Below the pieces are notes generated by a model. The model searched no databases. It saw only the letters and a program-made list of their open reading frames with translations, and was not told where the DNA came from. Made by a program: the position numbers and the translations under genes. From positions 1 through 64,000 of the forward strand of contig NZ_JAHBZK010000007.1 in assembly GCF_019635465.1 (NCBI RefSeq): a stretch of DNA of 64,000 nucleotides, written 5' to 3'. This stretch comes from Hydrogenophaga sp. GTDB lineage: Bacteria > Pseudomonadota > Gammaproteobacteria > Burkholderiales > Burkholderiaceae_C. Shown here piece after piece: positions 47,151 to 54,176 of the stretch. Each line of letters opens with the position of its first letter. Position 1 is the first letter of the stretch.

Positions 47151-47597
47151 ATGGCAACTGCGAAAAAGGCCGCCGCGAAAAAAGCGCCGGCGAAAAAGGC
47201 CCCCGCCAAGAAGGCGGCTCCGGCCAAGAAAGTCGTGGCGAAGAAGGCCGCCCCGGCGAAGAAAGCGGCACCGGCCAAGAAGGCCGCGCCGGCGAAGAAG
47301 GCGGCTCCGGCCAAGAAGGTCGCCGCCAAAAAAGCGCCCGCCAAGAAGCGCACCCCCAACGCGGCCTTCATGAAAGCGCTGACCCCCAGCGCCGCCCTGG
47401 CCGCCATCGTGGGCAGCAGCCCGCTGCCGCGCACCGAAGTCACCAAGAAGGTCTGGGACTACATCAAGAAGAACAAGCTGCAGGACGCAGTCAACAAGCG
47501 CATGATCAACGCCGACGCCAAACTGAAGGAAATCTTCAAGAAGGCCCAGGCTTCGATGTTCGAAATGACCAAGCTGGTCAACGACCATCTGAAGTGA
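47151..47597 (+). CDS. Histone H1/AlgP-like tail fused to a SWIB/MDM2 domain
   Basis: 148 residues. The first about 62 are alanine/lysine/proline repeats (AAKKAPAKK, APAKKA units), like histone H1-like and AlgP proteins that bind DNA non-specifically. From about residue 64 comes a compact SWIB domain: TPNAAFMKALTPSAALAAIVGSSPLPRTEVTKKVWDYIKKNKLQDAVNKRMINADAKLKEIF...FEMTKLVNDHL. In eukaryotes SWIB occurs in chromatin remodellers; in bacteria it is uncharacterised, often in chlamydiae and betaproteobacteria. The start follows a strong AGAAGGAAA Shine-Dalgarno. A strong terminator follows, suggesting a monocistronic, well-expressed gene. Confidence 0.9.
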   Translation: MATAKKAAAKKAPAKKAPAKKAAPAKKVVAKKAAPAKKAAPAKKAAPAKKAAPAKKVAAKKAPAKKRTPNAAFMKALTPSAALAAIVGSSPLPRTEVTKKVWDYIKKNKLQDAVNKRMINADAKLKEIFKKAQASMFEMTKLVNDHLK

Positions 47598-47667: not shown

Positions 47668-47741
47668 GCTCGTCCATCGCCGCGCGCGACCTGATCACGT
47701 GACCAACTGTGCGAAACTGCGTCGCCCTGTCACGCACCCCG

Positions 47742-49565
47742 ATGAACACGCGTCCCTCGACCACGCCACCGCCCACCGACGCCATTGAAGCGTCGGGCAA
47801 CTCGTTGCCGCCATTGCGGCACAAAACCGTTCTGGTGATCGATCTGGTCGAGTCGGTGCGATTGATGGCCGCCAACGAAGCGCAAGTGGTGAGTCACTGG
47901 CGCAGCTTCGTTCAATTCGCCACCAGTGAGGTGTTGCCCGAACGGGGTGGCCGCCTGGTCAAGAGTCTGGGCGATGGCCTGCTGGCCGAATTCGAGCACC
48001 CATCGCAAGCGGTGCGCGCAGCGCTGGCCCTGCACCGCCATTTCGACGCCGCCAACCGACAGTTGCCCGCCGCCGAGCAGATGTACCTGCGCGCCGGCAT
48101 CAACGCCACGCAGCTGTATGTGGACGACGTGGACGTCTACGGGCACGGCGTTAACCTGGCCGCGCGCGTGGCCGATCTGGCCGCGCCGGGTGAGACGGTC
48201 GTCACCGCCAGCGTCTACGACGCGCTGGTGATCGGCGTGGACGCCGACGTGCAGGACCGCGGCGAGAGCTACCTCAAGCACTGGCCCGAGCCGGTGCGCA
48301 CCTGGTCGGTGACGCCGGTCAATGAACACACCCCGGTGGTTCGACTGCCCACGCCGGCCGAATCGGCGAGCGATTTCCGACCCGGCGTGGCGGTGGTGCC
48401 GTTCGAGACACGTACGCATGCGCAGGAGCATTTCGTCATTGGCGAGCTGATCGCCGACGGCGTGATCACCCAGCTCTCGCGCAGTCAGGACCTGCGCGTG
48501 ATCTCGCGCCTGTCCACCAGCGCCTTTCGCGGTCGTGGCTCGACGCCGGCCGAAATCGGCCAGCGACTGGAAGCGTCCTACACGCTCAGCGGCAGCTACG
48601 TGAGCTTTGGCGACAAGGTGGTCATCACCGCCGAGCTCAGCGACAACCGACGCAACGAAGTCGTCTGGGCCGATCGGCTGTCAGGCGACACGCTGGACCT
48701 GCTGCAGGCCGAGAGCGAACTCATCACCCGCCTGAGCGAAGCCACCGCCAGCGCGGTGCTGCACCACCTGGTGCAGCGCACCCTGGTGCAGCCGGTGCCG
48801 CAGCTGGAGAGCAATGCGCTGATGCTAGGCGGCATCACGCTGATGCACCGATCCACGCCGCGCGACCTCAAGCGCAGCCACGAACTGCTGGAGGCGGTGG
48901 TCGACCGCCACAAGCGCGTGGCCACACCGTGGGCCTGGCTGGCGAAGTGGCACATCATGCAGGTGGTGCAGGGCTTGGCGGCCGATCCGTCCAGGGAGTT
49001 CCGCGAAGCGATCGGCGTGGCGGATCGCGCGCTCGATCTGGAGCCCAGCAGCTCGCTGGCCATGGCGATCAAGGGACATGCGCTGTGCCACCTGGGTGCC
49101 GATGTGGATCTGTCCAGGCAGTTACTCGTTCAGTCGACCGAGATCAACCCCAACGATGCAATGGCGTGGCTCTACTTGAGCGTGTGGTCAACGCTCTGGG
49201 GGGTGCCCGACGATTCGGTCGCCGAAGCCGAAACGGCTCTGCGACTGTCGCCGCTGGATCCGCAGAAGTACTACTTCGAAATGATGCTCGCCAACTGCTA
49301 CCTCGCTACGCACCGTTTGAGCGACGCGATCCGGCTGGGCCAGGCATCGATGAAAAAAAACCGCTTTCACGCGCCCACCATCCGCGCCGTGCTGATCGCA
49401 CAGTTCGAGTCCGGCGACCTCACCGGCGCGCGGGGCAGTTTCGACATGTTGCGACAGGTGCAGCCCGATCTCACGATCGCGAAATACCGATCGACCGGGG
49501 GCGACAGCCCGATGCGCAAGCGCGCCGTGCATGCCTTTTCGGCTCTTGGCATGCCCGATTCCTGA
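47742..49565 (+). CDS. Class III adenylate cyclase with TolB/FlgO-like and TPR regions
   Basis: 607 residues. N-terminal class III catalytic domain (about 28-190): metal-binding D34 (VIDLVES) and D78 (LGDGLLAEF), transition-state N138 and R142 (GVNLAARV), and adenine-selecting K74 and D131 (VDVYGHG), which favour ATP over GTP. Next comes a TolB/FlgO-like segment (GVAVVPFETRTHAQEHFVIGELIADGVITQLSRSQDLRVISRLSTSAF, about 215-330) common in cyclase-TPR proteins, then helix-turn-helix TPR-like repeats to the end. No signal peptide or membrane segment, so cytosolic. ATG 47742 preferred over a GTG 33 bp upstream. 26 bp before the PAP2 gene on the same strand. Confidence 0.88.
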   Translation: MNTRPSTTPPPTDAIEASGNSLPPLRHKTVLVIDLVESVRLMAANEAQVVSHWRSFVQFATSEVLPERGGRLVKSLGDGLLAEFEHPSQAVRAALALHRHFDAANRQLPAAEQMYLRAGINATQLYVDDVDVYGHGVNLAARVADLAAPGETVVTASVYDALVIGVDADVQDRGESYLKHWPEPVRTWSVTPVNEHTPVVRLPTPAESASDFRPGVAVVPFETRTHAQEHFVIGELIADGVITQLSRSQDLRVISRLSTSAFRGRGSTPAEIGQRLEASYTLSGSYVSFGDKVVITAELSDNRRNEVVWADRLSGDTLDLLQAESELITRLSEATASAVLHHLVQRTLVQPVPQLESNALMLGGITLMHRSTPRDLKRSHELLEAVVDRHKRVATPWAWLAKWHIMQVVQGLAADPSREFREAIGVADRALDLEPSSSLAMAIKGHALCHLGADVDLSRQLLVQSTEINPNDAMAWLYLSVWSTLWGVPDDSVAEAETALRLSPLDPQKYYFEMMLANCYLATHRLSDAIRLGQASMKKNRFHAPTIRAVLIAQFESGDLTGARGSFDMLRQVQPDLTIAKYRSTGGDSPMRKRAVHAFSALGMPDS

Positions 49566-49591
49566 GAGCCCGAAGAACAGAGAGGTCAATC

Positions 49592-50689
49592 ATGAGCGGA
49601 GGTGTGAGCGGTGGCGTCAGCGGTGGCGTCAGCGGTGGCGTCAGCGGAGGGGTGAGTGGGGGTGTCAGCGGCGGGGTGAGTGGCGGCGTCAGCGGCGCCG
49701 TCGCATCGGCCGACGCGCTGATCACCAATCGCGCCGCCATCGTTGGCCCCTTTGATGGCCCGGTTCTTCAAGTGAAGTGGCCGCAAGTCAACGACCCTGC
49801 CAACCTCAAGCGCTGGGCGCCGACACCGCGCCTGCTGGCCATCGGCAACGAGCTGCAGGAAGGTCTGCGTGTCGACACCAATGCGCGCCGGCGCCGGGCC
49901 GAGTTGCACTTTGATCGCCGGGGCCGCAGCGACACCCTGGTCATGCTCGAAGGCCCGGACGAGCGCCTCATCAAGGAGCAACTGCCCCTGGTGGCCGCGT
50001 ATGCCAACCTGCGCGCCGACCGCGCCGTCGAAATCGTCGACCAGATGGGCTATCCGGTGGCGTTCTGGTCGTCGGTGATCGGCATGACGACGCACCGTCA
50101 CAAAAAGACGCTGGAGCTCATCGAGCTGGCCTATGCCTTCACCGCCAGCTTCACGCAGCGTTTCAAGTTCATCTTCTCGATCACACGCGCCGACGAGTTC
50201 TCGCCGCAGATCCAGGCCATGATCCCGACGCCGGGCCATGGCTCCTGGCCCAGTGGCCACGCCACCGAGGCCTTCCTCATCGCCACCTTGCTTGAGAAGC
50301 TGCTCGACGCCGCCGCACCGGCACGTGGGCGCCACCCTGGCAACGGCGCCGCCAGCCGCGAGCAGCTGCAACGCCAGGCCGCGCGCATTGCCGTCAACCG
50401 CACTGTCGCCGGTGTGCACTACCCCATCGACAGCGCCTGCGGCCGATTGCTGGGCACGGCGCTGGCCGAGTACATCGTGGCGCGCGCCACCGGCGGCAAG
50501 GTGCACGAACGCGGCTTTCACGCCGAGCTGTTCCGTGAACCGGACGGCGGCCCCAAGGACTTCTCGCTCGAAGACAGCATGGACCACGCGAGCGGCCACC
50601 CCTACACGCGGGCGCGCCAGGGCCGCACCGTGCCCGAAGCGCCGCTGCTGGCGTGGTTGTGGAACGAAGCCGTCAAGGAGTGGCCATGA
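49592..50689 (+). CDS. PAP2/vanadium-haloperoxidase-type protein with an SGGV-repeat N-terminus
   Basis: 365 residues. It begins with eight SGGV units and one SGAV unit (residues 2-37), then a region without a recognised domain, then the three-part PAP2/VHPO signature: K192-x6-R199, PSGH with S221-H223, and R270-x5-H276-x3-D280. These bind phosphate or vanadate; Asn replaces the usual Ser before R270. There is no signal or membrane segment, so it is likely a soluble enzyme acting on phosphate esters, or a haloperoxidase if vanadate is bound. Start has an AGAGGT Shine-Dalgarno. It sits between the cyclase (26 bp) and an S8 peptidase (58 bp). Confidence 0.82.
   Translation: MSGGVSGGVSGGVSGGVSGGVSGGVSGGVSGGVSGAVASADALITNRAAIVGPFDGPVLQVKWPQVNDPANLKRWAPTPRLLAIGNELQEGLRVDTNARRRRAELHFDRRGRSDTLVMLEGPDERLIKEQLPLVAAYANLRADRAVEIVDQMGYPVAFWSSVIGMTTHRHKKTLELIELAYAFTASFTQRFKFIFSITRADEFSPQIQAMIPTPGHGSWPSGHATEAFLIATLLEKLLDAAAPARGRHPGNGAASREQLQRQAARIAVNRTVAGVHYPIDSACGRLLGTALAEYIVARATGGKVHERGFHAELFREPDGGPKDFSLEDSMDHASGHPYTRARQGRTVPEAPLLAWLWNEAVKEWP
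49595..49702 (+). repeat. Nine in-frame 12-bp tandem repeats (SGGV)
   Basis: Nine units of AGCGGnGGnGTn type. Units 2-4 are identical (AGCGGTGGCGTC); the others differ mainly at third codon positions but keep Ser-Gly-Gly-Val, except the last (SGAV). This pattern points to protein-level selection with a recent expansion in the middle. Confidence 0.95.
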
Positions 50690-50747
50690 GCCGCCGGGCC
50701 GCTCCCAAGGCTCATCGTTCCGCAGTGCGCAGCACGGAGGTGTTCTG

Positions 50748-52688
50748 ATGAGCTGGCGGCCGCTGCCCAAGGGCCGTTTCACCGGCATCGACTGGTCCGC
50801 GCCGGGTGCCATCGATGGCATGGACCCCTACCTCGCCTGGGCCGAGGCCGATGGCTTCGTGGGCTATCACGCCCCTGGTCGACGCGATCAACCCCACTGG
50901 CTGCCCATCGTCATCGGCCTGCGCGAGGGCGCCGATGTGCGCCAGCTGGTGGACGCCAGCTCGACGCAGTGGTTGCAGGTGCCCACGGTCTATCTCCTGA
51001 CCCCGGGCCTGCGCCACTGCACCGCGCGCGTCTCGCGCGACTTCTTCAAGGCCTGGCGCCGCCACCACCCGGTGCGCGCGCTCATCGAGCGCTTTGAACT
51101 GGGCCTGCCGGTGGAACACCATGCCCGCGCCCTGGCGCACTTCTGCCACCCGCACAAGCAACCGCGCCCGGTGCGCGACCGCCTGCACGGCCCGGTGCTG
51201 GGCGTCATCGACGGTGGCCTTGCGCTGGCCAACGCGGCGTTTCGCGACGGTCGCGGTCGCACGCGCATCCTGCGCTTCTGGCGCCAGGACAACTTCTACG
51301 GTGGCGTCTGGCCCGGCCCGATCAACGACGCCCGCGTGCCGCTCGACCCTCATCGCGCCGGCCCCATGCCGCACGACATGGGCTACGGCCACGAGCTGCA
51401 CGCCACGCAGATCGACCGCGACATCGCCCGCTTCACCCAGCGTGGCCACTTGAACGAAGAGGCGCTGTACCGCCACCTGCAGCTGCCCGACCTGTCGCAC
51501 CCGGTCAACCACGGCACCCACGTCACTGGCCTGGCCACCGCGCCCGGCGGCCTGCTCGATGCGGCGCGCAACGACTTCGCCAGCCGCTGCCCCATCGTGG
51601 CGGTGCAGCTCGACTGGGCCAATGTGCTCGACACCTCGGGCGGTGCGATGAACGTGAGCGTGCTCGACGGCCTGCACTACATCGTTTCGCGCTGCACCGA
51701 TGACGCCGCCATCGTGACCAACATCAGCTGGGGCACGCTGGCCGGGCCGCACGACGGCACCTCGCTGCTCGAAGCCGCCATGGACGAGCTGGTGCAGGTG
51801 CTGGGCGGGAGACTGCAGATCACCGTGCCGGCCGGCAATGCCTACCAGAGCCGCACCCACGCCAACGCCACGCTGGCGCGGCGAACCTCGCTCGACCTGC
51901 ACTGGACCACCCTGCCCGACGATCAGACACAGAGTTTTCTGGAGATCTGGCTGCCGGCCAACGCGCAGCAGGTAAACATCGGCATCTCGCCGCCCGATCG
52001 CCCCGATCAGGCGGTGACGCTGGCGCCGGGCGCTTCGGGCATGTGGGTGGGTGGCGACGGGCGTCCTCGCTGGAGCGCCATCTACCCGCACACGAGCGCA
52101 CTCGGCAGCCTCGGCACCTGTGCCCTGATCGCGCTGGAGCCGAGCTTTCACCGCGAGGCCGGGCACGCACTGGCGCCGTTTGGCCGCTGGACCGTCAGCC
52201 TGCACAACCACGGCACCCAGCCTGTGACCTTCGACGCCTACGTGGAGCGCGACGACGTGGCACTGGGCGTCAACACCGGCGCCAAGCAGTCGTTCTTTGA
52301 GGACCGCAGCTACGACACGCTGGGTAACCTCAACGGCTGGGTGGATCACGCCAGCAACCCAACGCCGATCCGCCGCAGCGGCACCTTCAACAGCCTGTCC
52401 ACCGGGCAGGCCACGGTGAGTGTGGGCGGTACGCGGGCGACGGACGACGGGCCACAAGCCCTGGCCCGGTTTGCGCGCTACTCGCCTCAGCGACCGGACC
52501 CCGACCCCACCCGGCCGCAGCGCCCGGGGGTGAAACTGGTGCCCGAGACGCTTGCGCCCAGCGACGACAACCCCGCCTTGTGGGGTGTGCGCAGCACCGG
52601 CACCTTGAGCGCCAGCAGCGCCCGACTGGCCGGCACCAGTTCGTCCGCCCCGCAGGAGGCGCGGCGCCGCCTCAACGCGCTCGAATAG
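50748..52688 (+). CDS. Subtilisin-like S8 serine peptidase without signal peptide
   Basis: 646 residues. Catalytic triad D155 (VLGVIDGGLA), H255 (HGTHVTGLA) and S631 (AGTSSSAP), with oxyanion N364 (VPAGN). About 145 residues precede the first motif with no hydrophobic leader, so it is not a typical secreted subtilase. Some 265 residues separate N364 from S631, roughly 200 more than usual, and include beta-rich sequence with an F-x-x-W-x-V-like sandwich (GRWTVSLHNHGTQPVTFDAYVERDDV). The nucleophile is only 16 residues from the C-terminus. Start 50748 has an ACGGAGGTG Shine-Dalgarno. It ends the cyclase-PAP2-peptidase row and is convergent with crp. Confidence 0.88.
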   Translation: MSWRPLPKGRFTGIDWSAPGAIDGMDPYLAWAEADGFVGYHAPGRRDQPHWLPIVIGLREGADVRQLVDASSTQWLQVPTVYLLTPGLRHCTARVSRDFFKAWRRHHPVRALIERFELGLPVEHHARALAHFCHPHKQPRPVRDRLHGPVLGVIDGGLALANAAFRDGRGRTRILRFWRQDNFYGGVWPGPINDARVPLDPHRAGPMPHDMGYGHELHATQIDRDIARFTQRGHLNEEALYRHLQLPDLSHPVNHGTHVTGLATAPGGLLDAARNDFASRCPIVAVQLDWANVLDTSGGAMNVSVLDGLHYIVSRCTDDAAIVTNISWGTLAGPHDGTSLLEAAMDELVQVLGGRLQITVPAGNAYQSRTHANATLARRTSLDLHWTTLPDDQTQSFLEIWLPANAQQVNIGISPPDRPDQAVTLAPGASGMWVGGDGRPRWSAIYPHTSALGSLGTCALIALEPSFHREAGHALAPFGRWTVSLHNHGTQPVTFDAYVERDDVALGVNTGAKQSFFEDRSYDTLGNLNGWVDHASNPTPIRRSGTFNSLSTGQATVSVGGTRATDDGPQALARFARYSPQRPDPDPTRPQRPGVKLVPETLAPSDDNPALWGVRSTGTLSASSARLAGTSSSAPQEARRRLNALE

Positions 52689-52697
52689 CGCCGCGGC

Positions 52698-53348
52698 TCA
52701 CCAGCGTGCCGGCAACGGCTTGATCAACCAGATCCAGCGCTCGCGCACGGCGATGAAGCCGCCAGTCTCCAGGTCCTTGAGCAGGCGGCTCACCATCTCG
52801 CGCGAGCACGCCAGGTGCTGGGCGATCTGCTGGTGGGTGATGCGCTCACGCAGCGGACGCTCGCCCTGCTCGTTGGGCTCGTGTGCCCATTCGGTGAGCA
52901 GCTTGACCAGACGCCCATAAACATCAATCAAGGCCACACTGCGCGCGCTTTCGGTGGCCAGCCGGGCACGGCGGATCAGCCGCGCCATGAGTTCGAGCGC
53001 GAACTCGGGGTGTTCGGCGATGTAGCTGAGCAGACCGTGGCGGGTGACCACCGAGCAGGTGGTGTTGTCGACCGCTTCGACGTTGGCCGAGCGCGGGCCA
53101 CCGTCGAGCGACATTTCGCCCACGTATTCCAGCGGACCGTACAGGCCCAGGGTGAGCTCCTTGCCGCTGGCGTCGGCCACGAAGGCGCGAAGCCGGCCCT
53201 TGAGCACGATGAACAGCGTGTCGCCCGTATCGCCCTCCTGAATCAACAGGGCGCCACGTCGGTAATGGCGGTGCACGCCCTGCGCCGCCAGCGCTTCAAT
53301 GTGTTGGGTGTCGTACGAATCGAGGTTGGAAGCGCTGGCTGGGGGCAT
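52698..53348 (-). CDS. Crp/Fnr-family transcriptional regulator
   Basis: 216 residues. cNMP-binding fold with GDTLFIVLKGRLRAFVADASGKELTLGLYGPLEYVGE and a phosphate-binding cassette VGEMSLDGGPRSANV (E78, R86-S87-A88) of the type that contacts cyclic nucleotides in CRP. No N-terminal cysteine cluster, so not an oxygen-sensing Fnr. C-terminal helix-turn-helix ITHQQIAQHLACSREMVSRLLKDLE (170-194). It follows the PAS-LuxR gene by 9 bp and faces the cyclase-containing row. cAMP as ligand is an inference. Confidence 0.88.
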   Translation of the reverse strand: MPPASASNLDSYDTQHIEALAAQGVHRHYRRGALLIQEGDTGDTLFIVLKGRLRAFVADASGKELTLGLYGPLEYVGEMSLDGGPRSANVEAVDNTTCSVVTRHGLLSYIAEHPEFALELMARLIRRARLATESARSVALIDVYGRLVKLLTEWAHEPNEQGERPLRERITHQQIAQHLACSREMVSRLLKDLETGGFIAVRERWIWLIKPLPARW

Positions 53349-53357
53349 CCGGGCAGA

Positions 53358-54044
53358 TCAGGGGTGGTTGTAGGACCCCGAATTCTGCGTGACCGGTGTG
53401 ACGATGCGCAAGGCGGGCACCACGGGCGGCAGGCTGTTGATCCGCTGCAGCAGACGGCGGATGCTGGAAGCGCCGGCTTTTTCGCGCAGGGTCTTGATCT
53501 GGCTGCGCACGGTGGACACGGCCACGCCGTTTTCCTGCGCGATCTCGTTGATGTCCAGGCCGCGGCACAGCGCCAGCAGCACCACCTCTTCGGTCGGGCT
53601 CAGGCTGAGCGCGCGGGCGAACATGCGCACGGCCAGGTTGTCGCAGACGTTCTGGCGCGAGAGCACCACCAGCACGGTGGGCTTGTCGTCTTCAAGCGGG
53701 TGCGACAGCGGGGTGAAGGCCATCGACAGGTCGCGCTCGGCCTCGCGCATGAGCACCAGCCGGCGCTGACCGCGCACCGCAGCGTCCAGCGCTTGCTGGA
53801 TGCGCTCGCTGTGCTCGGGGGTGTTGCCCATGAGGCTGCCGCTGCAAGCGCGCAGCAGGCGGCGCTGGGCGAGTTCGTGGCGCGCCAGGTGGTTGGCGTG
53901 CAGGATGCGACCTTGCGCGTCCAGCAGCAGCAGACCGTAGTCGATCTCGTCGAACACGCGCAGCAGATGCGCCTCGCTCAAGCCGGACACGTCGTCGTGT
54001 ACCAACTGACCACTGGACCAAACCTTGTCTGAAACCTGCAACAT
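53358..54044 (-). CDS. PAS-LuxR-type transcriptional regulator
   Basis: 228 residues. An N-terminal PAS-like sensor (about 20-120: LLRVFDEIDYGLLLLDAQGRILHANHLARHELAQ) precedes a LuxR/GerE helix-turn-helix (LSLSPTEEVVLLALCRGLDINEIAQENGVAVSTVRSQIKTLREKAGASS, about 145-195). No receiver domain, so probably ligand-responsive. The start has a textbook AGGAGGT Shine-Dalgarno. It leads a two-gene unit with the Crp/Fnr gene. PAS ligand and targets unknown. Confidence 0.87.
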   Translation of the reverse strand: MLQVSDKVWSSGQLVHDDVSGLSEAHLLRVFDEIDYGLLLLDAQGRILHANHLARHELAQRRLLRACSGSLMGNTPEHSERIQQALDAAVRGQRRLVLMREAERDLSMAFTPLSHPLEDDKPTVLVVLSRQNVCDNLAVRMFARALSLSPTEEVVLLALCRGLDINEIAQENGVAVSTVRSQIKTLREKAGASSIRRLLQRINSLPPVVPALRIVTPVTQNSGSYNHP

Positions 54045-54176
54045 GGTGAACCTCCTGTTGAGACAGAAGTGTTCACCTCTGAGCGGCGACGCGATGTGTC
54101 GTGATGACGCGCAGTTTGTGATCTATTCACCAACGGCGTTGGGCGGGAGGGCATCGCGCGCCTGGCCGCTCAACGC

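Follow-up and report, generated by a model that had tools for sequence, protein, structure and literature searches.

Does a nucleotide cyclase that precedes a PAP2-superfamily enzyme and an S8 peptidase serve the Crp-like regulator encoded opposite to it, and what do the two enzymes contribute? The question is raised by a locus of Hydrogenophaga sp. (assembly GCF_019635465.1) at positions 47742–54044 of the window, that is, of the whole stretch of 64,000 nucleotides analysed (contig NZ_JAHBZK010000007.1, positions 1–64,000). Three genes lie on the forward strand. Gene 1 (47742–49565) encodes a class III nucleotide cyclase domain (residues 29–188) fused to a TolB-like/TPR half (approximately residues 220–600), gene 2 (49592–50689) a PAP2-superfamily enzyme, and gene 3 (50748–52688) an S8 peptidase. 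A Crp-like regulator (52698–53348) and, upstream of it in the same unit, a LuxR-type regulator (53358–54044) are encoded on the reverse strand. The gaps measure 26 bp between the cyclase and PAP2 genes, 58 bp between the PAP2 and S8 genes, 9 bp from the S8 stop codon to the crp-like gene, and 9 bp between crp and luxR; the coordinates and gaps stated in the preliminary description are correct. Among the window proteins, the Pfam models Guanylate_cyc, PAP2, cNMP_binding and the Crp helix-turn-helix (HTH) score above their cut-offs; Peptidase_S8 (17.1 versus 21.8 bits), GerE (23.1 versus 23.5) and PAS_4 (18.5 versus 23.1) score below them. The LuxR-type gene had been called PAS-LuxR. Its LuxR part holds, as GerE matches all ten members of the family, the window included, but the PAS part is weak, with PAS_4 matching five of the ten at an E-value of 0.01. 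No 19-residue stretch in any of the five proteins exceeds a hydropathy of 1.29, and none looks secreted or membrane-bound, in agreement with the earlier view of a soluble PAP2 enzyme and a leaderless peptidase.

The reading put forward here, with a probability of roughly 55%, is that of an accessory signalling module with a local circuit in which cyclic AMP (cAMP) and Crp act on the luxR-crp unit. Gene 1 would be a cytosolic sensor whose TolB-like/TPR half receives a signal and whose output in this locus would be a nucleotide cyclase, probably making cAMP. The cAMP would load the neighbouring Crp-like protein, which may then bind a predicted operator at 54117–54131 and control its own luxR-crp unit, presumably as local feedback. 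The LuxR partner would probably act on the trio of forward genes, of which PAP2 and S8, a constant and probably co-transcribed cytosolic pair, would form the working end. The reading draws on features that can be observed directly in the sequences: conservation, gene order, a domain swap, intact active sites, an operator motif and co-occurrence.

The arrangement of the trio is beyond chance. Gene 1, PAP2 and S8 occur in identical order and on one strand in 131 of 149 S8-anchored loci, at identities down to approximately 30%, and the flanking genes vary among loci while the order of the trio persists. The 149 loci comprise 40 regions from a search of 299 genomes of the family with the S8 protein (matches in 32 of 141 genera), 20 regions mapped from the 23 matched genomes among 398 of the phylum, 80 of the 111 named loci that a genome collection yielded, eight loci picked from 54 plasmid records, and the window; some genomes are present twice. 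All maps start from S8 matches, so the frequency of a solitary gene 1 cannot be read from them. Removing near-duplicates at 90% S8 identity reduces the 131 trio loci to 111. Four of the 18 loci that lack the trio are cut upstream by a contig end (L066, L076, L104, L119); the remainder are lone S8 matches, pairs without gene 1 or with PAP2 inverted, and L185, which has no S8 by profile. A reverse search from PAP2 yields 43 strong places (at least 190 bits) in 42 of the 299 family genomes; 41 of these genomes are in the S8-match set, and the last (G149) has an S8 gene adjoining PAP2. Sixteen weaker PAP2 places include two with S8 (L216, L217), five with a gene-1-like neighbour and no S8 (L218–L221, L229), and nine other PAP2 genes. 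In L218 (7055–8107), a cyclase-PAP2 pair without a repeat array lies opposite Crp-LuxR. The closest S8 protein among the named-collection matches listed is from Hydrogenophaga (74% identity). The trio, proposed as a unit in the preliminary description, recurs in numerous bacteria of soil and water. It stays together far beyond close relatives, contrary to the outcome named there as refuting the proposal, in Burkholderiales (Hydrogenophaga, Polaromonas, Ramlibacter, Curvibacter, Variovorax, Rubrivivax, Paraburkholderia and Caballeronia, among others) and in Alphaproteobacteria (Rhizobium, Bosea, Microvirga, Roseibium, Phaeobacter and Kiloniella, among others).

The patchy spread of the S8 matches (52 of the 299 family genomes) and the plasmid-borne state of some copies would suit an anti-phage defence akin to Pycsar with the peptidase as the killer, and the cyclase domain is similar to PycC (1.9e-9). 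Such a role is nevertheless very unlikely. The window and three genomes of the same genus (L033–L035) share their neighbours, as under vertical descent, and PADLOC gives no match for PAP2 or S8 at an E-value of 0.01, although nearby defence genes were not searched for systematically. Pycsar pairs a PycC cyclase with a TIR or membrane effector that carries a cyclic-nucleotide sensor. Here resemblance to PycC is confined to the cyclase domain, and none of the five proteins is an effector of either type; the Crp-like protein matches PycTIR solely in residues 14–129, its cyclic-nucleotide-binding (cNMP) part. A phage search for S8 returned two weak matches only.

Gene 1 combines a variable head with a constant body. 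The substrate-contacting Lys/Asp pair of class III cyclases is usually taken as the mark of the ATP type. The window cyclase (catalytic domain 47826–48305, forward strand) keeps this pair together with both metal-binding Asp residues and the transition-state Asn/Arg pair, a complete DKDDNR pattern by residue comparison, so that its earlier prediction as ATP-selective is borne out at the level of residues. All six residues are present in 96 of the 131 trio loci. Three loci (L102, L196, L202), none with an adjacent Crp, carry DEDANR instead, with Glu and Ala replacing the ATP-type Lys and Asp; cyclase specificity may therefore vary, possibly towards another nucleotide. Across the 111 loci, the TolB-like/TPR half, PAP2 and S8 are constant, and the N-terminal head is swapped. 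It is an intact cyclase in most loci. Phaeobacter has an OmpR-type winged helix (Pfam Trans_reg_C, 4.3e-14) followed by a decayed cyclase remnant, and a short domain with weak SARP/ToxR-like matches forms the head in Bosea, Terrarubrum, Microvirga and Kiloniella. Seven of the short heads were compared with profiles: Trans_reg_C matches four at 0.04–0.16, a ToxR profile reaches 0.0016, and SARP AfsR matches two, at best at 0.008; they are probably winged-helix DNA-binding domains. The cyclase head is decayed in L127, L130, L195, L197 and L198. That one TPR body can carry either a second-messenger enzyme or a DNA-binding domain suggests a task in transcriptional control for gene 1, a control that the probable DNA-binding domain of the relatives would achieve in one step. 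PAP2 and the peptidase may be effectors or substrates of cAMP and Crp, as proposed earlier, but the loci that replace the cyclase in this way suggest that the PAP2-S8 pair is able to work without cAMP.

The Crp-like protein has the features expected of a partner for such a cyclase. Its pocket, GEMSLDGGPRSA, follows a cNMP pattern that 55 of the 59 Crps of the module share; the phosphate-binding E78 and R86-S87 of the pocket and S182-R183-E184 are invariant in all 12 aligned proteins, and the recognition helix SREMVSR resembles SRETVGR of E. coli, being altered in L122 and L190. The earlier assignment of a cyclic-nucleotide-type pocket is consistent with these conserved residues. For the association of Crp with the cyclase, the state of the latter was scored from four residues (both metal Asp, Asn and Arg). 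Nine of the 111 loci were set aside, four because a gene is broken or truncated (L073, L092, L103, L109) and five because less than 3 kb of sequence follows downstream (L090, L126, L129, L130, L206), leaving 82 loci with an intact cyclase and 20 others. Crp is adjacent in 55 of the 82 intact-cyclase loci versus 0 of the 20 others, and any cNMP-binding protein lies within approximately 9 kb in 61 versus 1 (Fisher p 1e-8, uncorrected for descent). In Curvibacter, where the Crp-LuxR pair was not found, a cNMP-EAL protein is encoded just upstream of the cyclase, as judged by Pfam in L040 and by profile matches in L041 and L100.

Several results weigh against the cAMP-Crp circuit. No nearby cNMP-binding protein occurs in 21 of the 82 intact-cyclase loci, and one of the six that have a cNMP-binding protein other than Crp (L116) is weak. 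Of the 20 others, L051 and L203 retain a cyclase that departs from the intact pattern at one or two positions only. On the tree, the state of the cyclase changes six times and that of Crp 14 times; the independent pairs never run in the contrary direction, although they are too few for significance. The phylogenetic co-occurrence suggested earlier thus has the right direction without reaching significance.

The Crp-LuxR pair may alternatively be an independent regulator that merely lies beside the trio and answers global cAMP or another ligand, the trio cyclase signalling elsewhere. Twenty-seven of the 82 intact-cyclase loci do without this Crp, which is consequently not obligatory, and the Hydrogenophaga genome has ten cNMP-binding family matches and a second class III cyclase. 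Against this, besides its absence from all 20 non-intact variants, Crp is missing from two loci that retain LuxR beside a decayed cyclase (L127 and L130, the latter with only 1.65 kb downstream and outside the 20), and neither has an operator at one mismatch. The replacement of Crp by cNMP-EAL in Curvibacter also speaks against independence. This alternative is considered doubtful, and the predicted cAMP-Crp link remains well supported by co-occurrence, the kept pocket and helix, and the operator of luxR-crp.

That operator, GGTGAATAGATCACA, was identified as a motif match at 54117–54131 (reverse strand), upstream of luxR-crp. When every 5-base palindrome upstream of luxR (gaps 0–13) was scored without supervision, TGTGA-N5-TCACA ranked first, in 35 of 53 loci versus 0.0 in shuffles. 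With N5 or N6 spacing and at most one mismatch, the site is present in 42 of the 53 loci, versus 0.7% in shuffled DNA. The 53 are the Crp-LuxR loci with upstream DNA; L036, L039 and L091 are outside the count, and the first two, examined additionally, both have a site. The half-sites fit the SREMVSR helix. The operator occurs in 41 of 50 loci with SREM[VI]S[RK], in one with a frameshifted crp gene, and in neither of the two with an altered helix (L122, L190). In the 3.9 Mb Hydrogenophaga genome (88% complete), the window site is the sole match to KGTGAATANNTCACA at up to one mismatch; 3 of 12 genomes have a match to this narrower consensus, which lies at the module in two of them. Across 17 genomes with the module, KGTGAATNNNTCACA is matched exactly at 16 places, 6 of them at the module, compared with 2 for a reversed control pattern. 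The luxR-crp unit is thus probably under the control of its own Crp.

Other observations on the operator count against this assignment. LuxR loci without an adjacent Crp have the operator in one of five cases (L049, with an intact cyclase), and LuxR itself could for this reason be the operator binder. The N5 spacing is unusual for Crp, and 10 of the 16 exact KGTGAATNNNTCACA matches lie away from the module, at unrelated genes. In front of the cyclase, the operator (N5 or N6, at most one mismatch) is absent from all 55 loci that have Crp and all 33 that lack it, which would suit an independent Crp-LuxR pair. The proposal that Crp acts on these genes therefore stands for luxR-crp, where an operator is predicted, and not for a site in front of the cyclase. 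In G164 (L276, 2264–3526), a perfect operator is situated between a sulfotransferase gene and a phage-tail-collar/DUF6916 gene pair.

Candidate Crp sites before the trio were rejected, the best N6 scores being at the level of shuffled DNA in loci with Crp (6.58 versus 6.56; in loci without Crp, 6.79 versus 6.46), and a de novo scan there found elements that probably derive from coding sequence. An element TGTG[AC]GAAACTG occurs upstream of the cyclase in 19 of 89 cyclase loci, mostly of Hydrogenophaga; the window copy, TGTGCGAAACTG, is at 47708–47719 on the forward strand. In 11 of the 89 loci (L036, L038, L039, L043, L075, L077, L078, L080, L081, L090, L096), a near-invariant CTCCTACAAAA(T)GAGGAGG stands just before the cyclase start and could, on paper, pair with and hide the ribosome-binding site. 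Further upstream in the window (47151–47597) is a gene for a histone H1-like lysine/alanine repeat protein with its own tandem AKKAAP array. The space between S8 and Crp-LuxR amounts to approximately 5 kb or more in ten loci, mostly of Polaromonas (L036, 1466–5735; L039, L078, L080, L081, L083, L085, L091, L094, L096); in L036, the sole annotated case, an M4 (thermolysin-type) peptidase and an AAA-ATPase cyclase are encoded there. DUF6065 proteins are encoded near the module in L037 (12471–13479), L039 (12555–14292) and L050 (6208–7008), with Pfam matches in L039 and L050; those of L037 and L039 adjoin proteins with approximate G-rich repeats, and that of L050 occupies the usual place of Crp.

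The two enzymes at the presumed working end, like the cyclase, have active sites that look intact. In PAP2, K192, R199, G222-H223, R270, H276 and D280 are invariant in 20 of 20 aligned proteins. These include the vanadate/phosphate-binding residues common to phosphatases and haloperoxidases, and a profile match to a bromoperoxidase (1.3e-8) agrees with the second half of the earlier PAP2/haloperoxidase designation. That PAP2 works as a vanadium haloperoxidase, oxidising halide in signalling or defence, is nonetheless unlikely, as the acid phosphatases 7f17/7f18, the top matches among solved structures, fit better (9.4e-19) and a cytosolic peroxidase would be odd. All 20 aligned S8 sequences share D155, H255, N364 and S631, and the D-H-S triad (D155/H255/S631) is accompanied by a GTSxxAP motif, which upholds the classification of the protein as an S8 peptidase in spite of the sub-threshold Pfam score. 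Its best-matching solved structures are Csp germination proteases (5.2e-25), the aligned stretch spanning the catalytic Asp and His and the oxyanion Asn, and its N-terminal region of approximately 145 residues is its own.

The most peculiar part of the trio is the repeat tail of PAP2. The preliminary description spoke of a repeat tail; in the window it lies at the N-terminus, where the eight perfect SGGV units (49595–49690, forward strand) directly follow the initial Met, and their codons have diverged synonymously. A perfect tandem array precedes the PAP2 domain in 103 of 111 proteins, with a median of eight units, and 98 of the 103 have a Met inside the first unit or at most 25 residues ahead of it. 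The eight proteins without a perfect array include some with imperfect repeats, for example L094 and L122. There are 63 different unit strings (59 after merging rotations), of three residues in 64 loci, four in 36 and six in three. Related species may share a unit (SGGY in L055 and L056) or differ (SGGY in L055, SGGF in L057). Since the arrays were selected as perfect runs in protein, their protein identity follows from the selection; the point is the codon divergence alongside. Comparison of 726 neighbouring copies shows 644 that differ in DNA and 82 that are identical, versus 33 identical ones expected from random codon choice. This pattern suggests that exact repetition is under selection while the unit itself turns over.

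A flexible or sticky low-complexity tether, acting as sticker-and-spacer, in a condensate or in surface binding, and repetitive through slippage and loose constraints on composition, would be the simpler account. The units do contain much Gly, Ser, Ala and Thr, and most have a single hydrophobic or aromatic residue besides; copy number varies (five NSF units in Phaeobacter piscinae L232, six in P. gallaeciensis L235), and some arrays, such as that of L060, look recently copied. A linker has no need of exact units, however, which is hard to reconcile with their persistence across diverged codons, and arrays of such size occur in just 9 of 1360 other called proteins of the same loci, eight of the nine being the lysine/alanine-rich neighbour. 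The tether is given slightly less than an even chance.

A reservoir of multiple peptide copies would also explain the tail. S8 might cut it into identical tri- to hexapeptides (SGGV here), which the TPR half of gene 1 would sense, toggling the cyclase or the fused DNA-binding domain; the unit would then be a species-specific private code, by analogy with pheromone precursors of many copies. Such a relay, itself rather improbable, would account for units that stay perfect while their codons diverge, for the constant company of a peptidase, for the TPR sensor, and for L219, where a Peptidase_A4-like gene unrelated to S8 takes the third place beside a PAP2 with an ANT array. Among the five gene-1/PAP2 loci without S8, arrays are found in two, L219 and L229. 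The array of L229 is imperfect and has no peptidase next to it, which argues against the relay; the link between S8 and the array is suggestive only. Of the features of Kex2-type processing, a hydrophobic leader is absent from the five proteins and a dibasic pair from the units listed; RRNPP peptide receptors join an HTH to TPRs and have a small secreted pro-peptide encoded beside them, whereas none of the five proteins looks secreted, and an HTH-TPR form exists in the relatives only.

The module is real and conserved, and its tail is the part most worth testing. A trio that spans two classes of Proteobacteria with a swappable output, cAMP or a probable DNA-binding domain, offers a natural experiment on how a second messenger replaces direct control of transcription. 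The tail, whose repeats are exact as protein although their DNA has diverged and whose unit varies among species, is a directly testable puzzle that could reveal an intracellular peptide code. In line with the preliminary description, no account of the trio was found in the open-access literature, a search that left subscription journals and bioRxiv largely outside.

Regulators of the HilA/CadC type are winged-helix-TPR proteins. The HilA/EilA model matches gene 1 at residues 267–551 (3.9e-11, far below the model's cut-off), and some relatives have an OmpR-type winged helix in place of the cyclase on this related TPR half; the module differs in having a cyclase as output domain and an enzyme pair that follows. 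Csp germination proteases are the best structural match of the S8 profile, but the module peptidase has fixed partners in PAP2 and a TPR regulator, besides its own N-terminal region. With PAP2-superfamily acid phosphatases the module enzyme shares the K-R-PSGH-R-H-D signature and, unlike them, it bears a species-specific N-terminal repeat array and no sign of a signal peptide. Kex2 belongs to the S8 family, and the yeast alpha-factor is a comparable case of identical short tandem peptides with a peptidase. Fungal Kex2-processed proteins likewise hold such peptides in one protein (PMC7329392); compared with them, the module tail is bacterial, has units of 3–6 residues without a secretion signal or dibasic sites, and is fused to an enzyme. 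A class III cyclase linked to a dedicated cyclic-nucleotide receptor is described for XC_0250/XC_0249 of Xanthomonas (PMC3770947) and CyaC-Clr-CycR of Sinorhizobium (PMC10463352); the present module is distinguished by a cyclase tied to PAP2-S8 and by a putative receptor encoded opposite to it, within a luxR-crp unit that has a predicted operator of its own.

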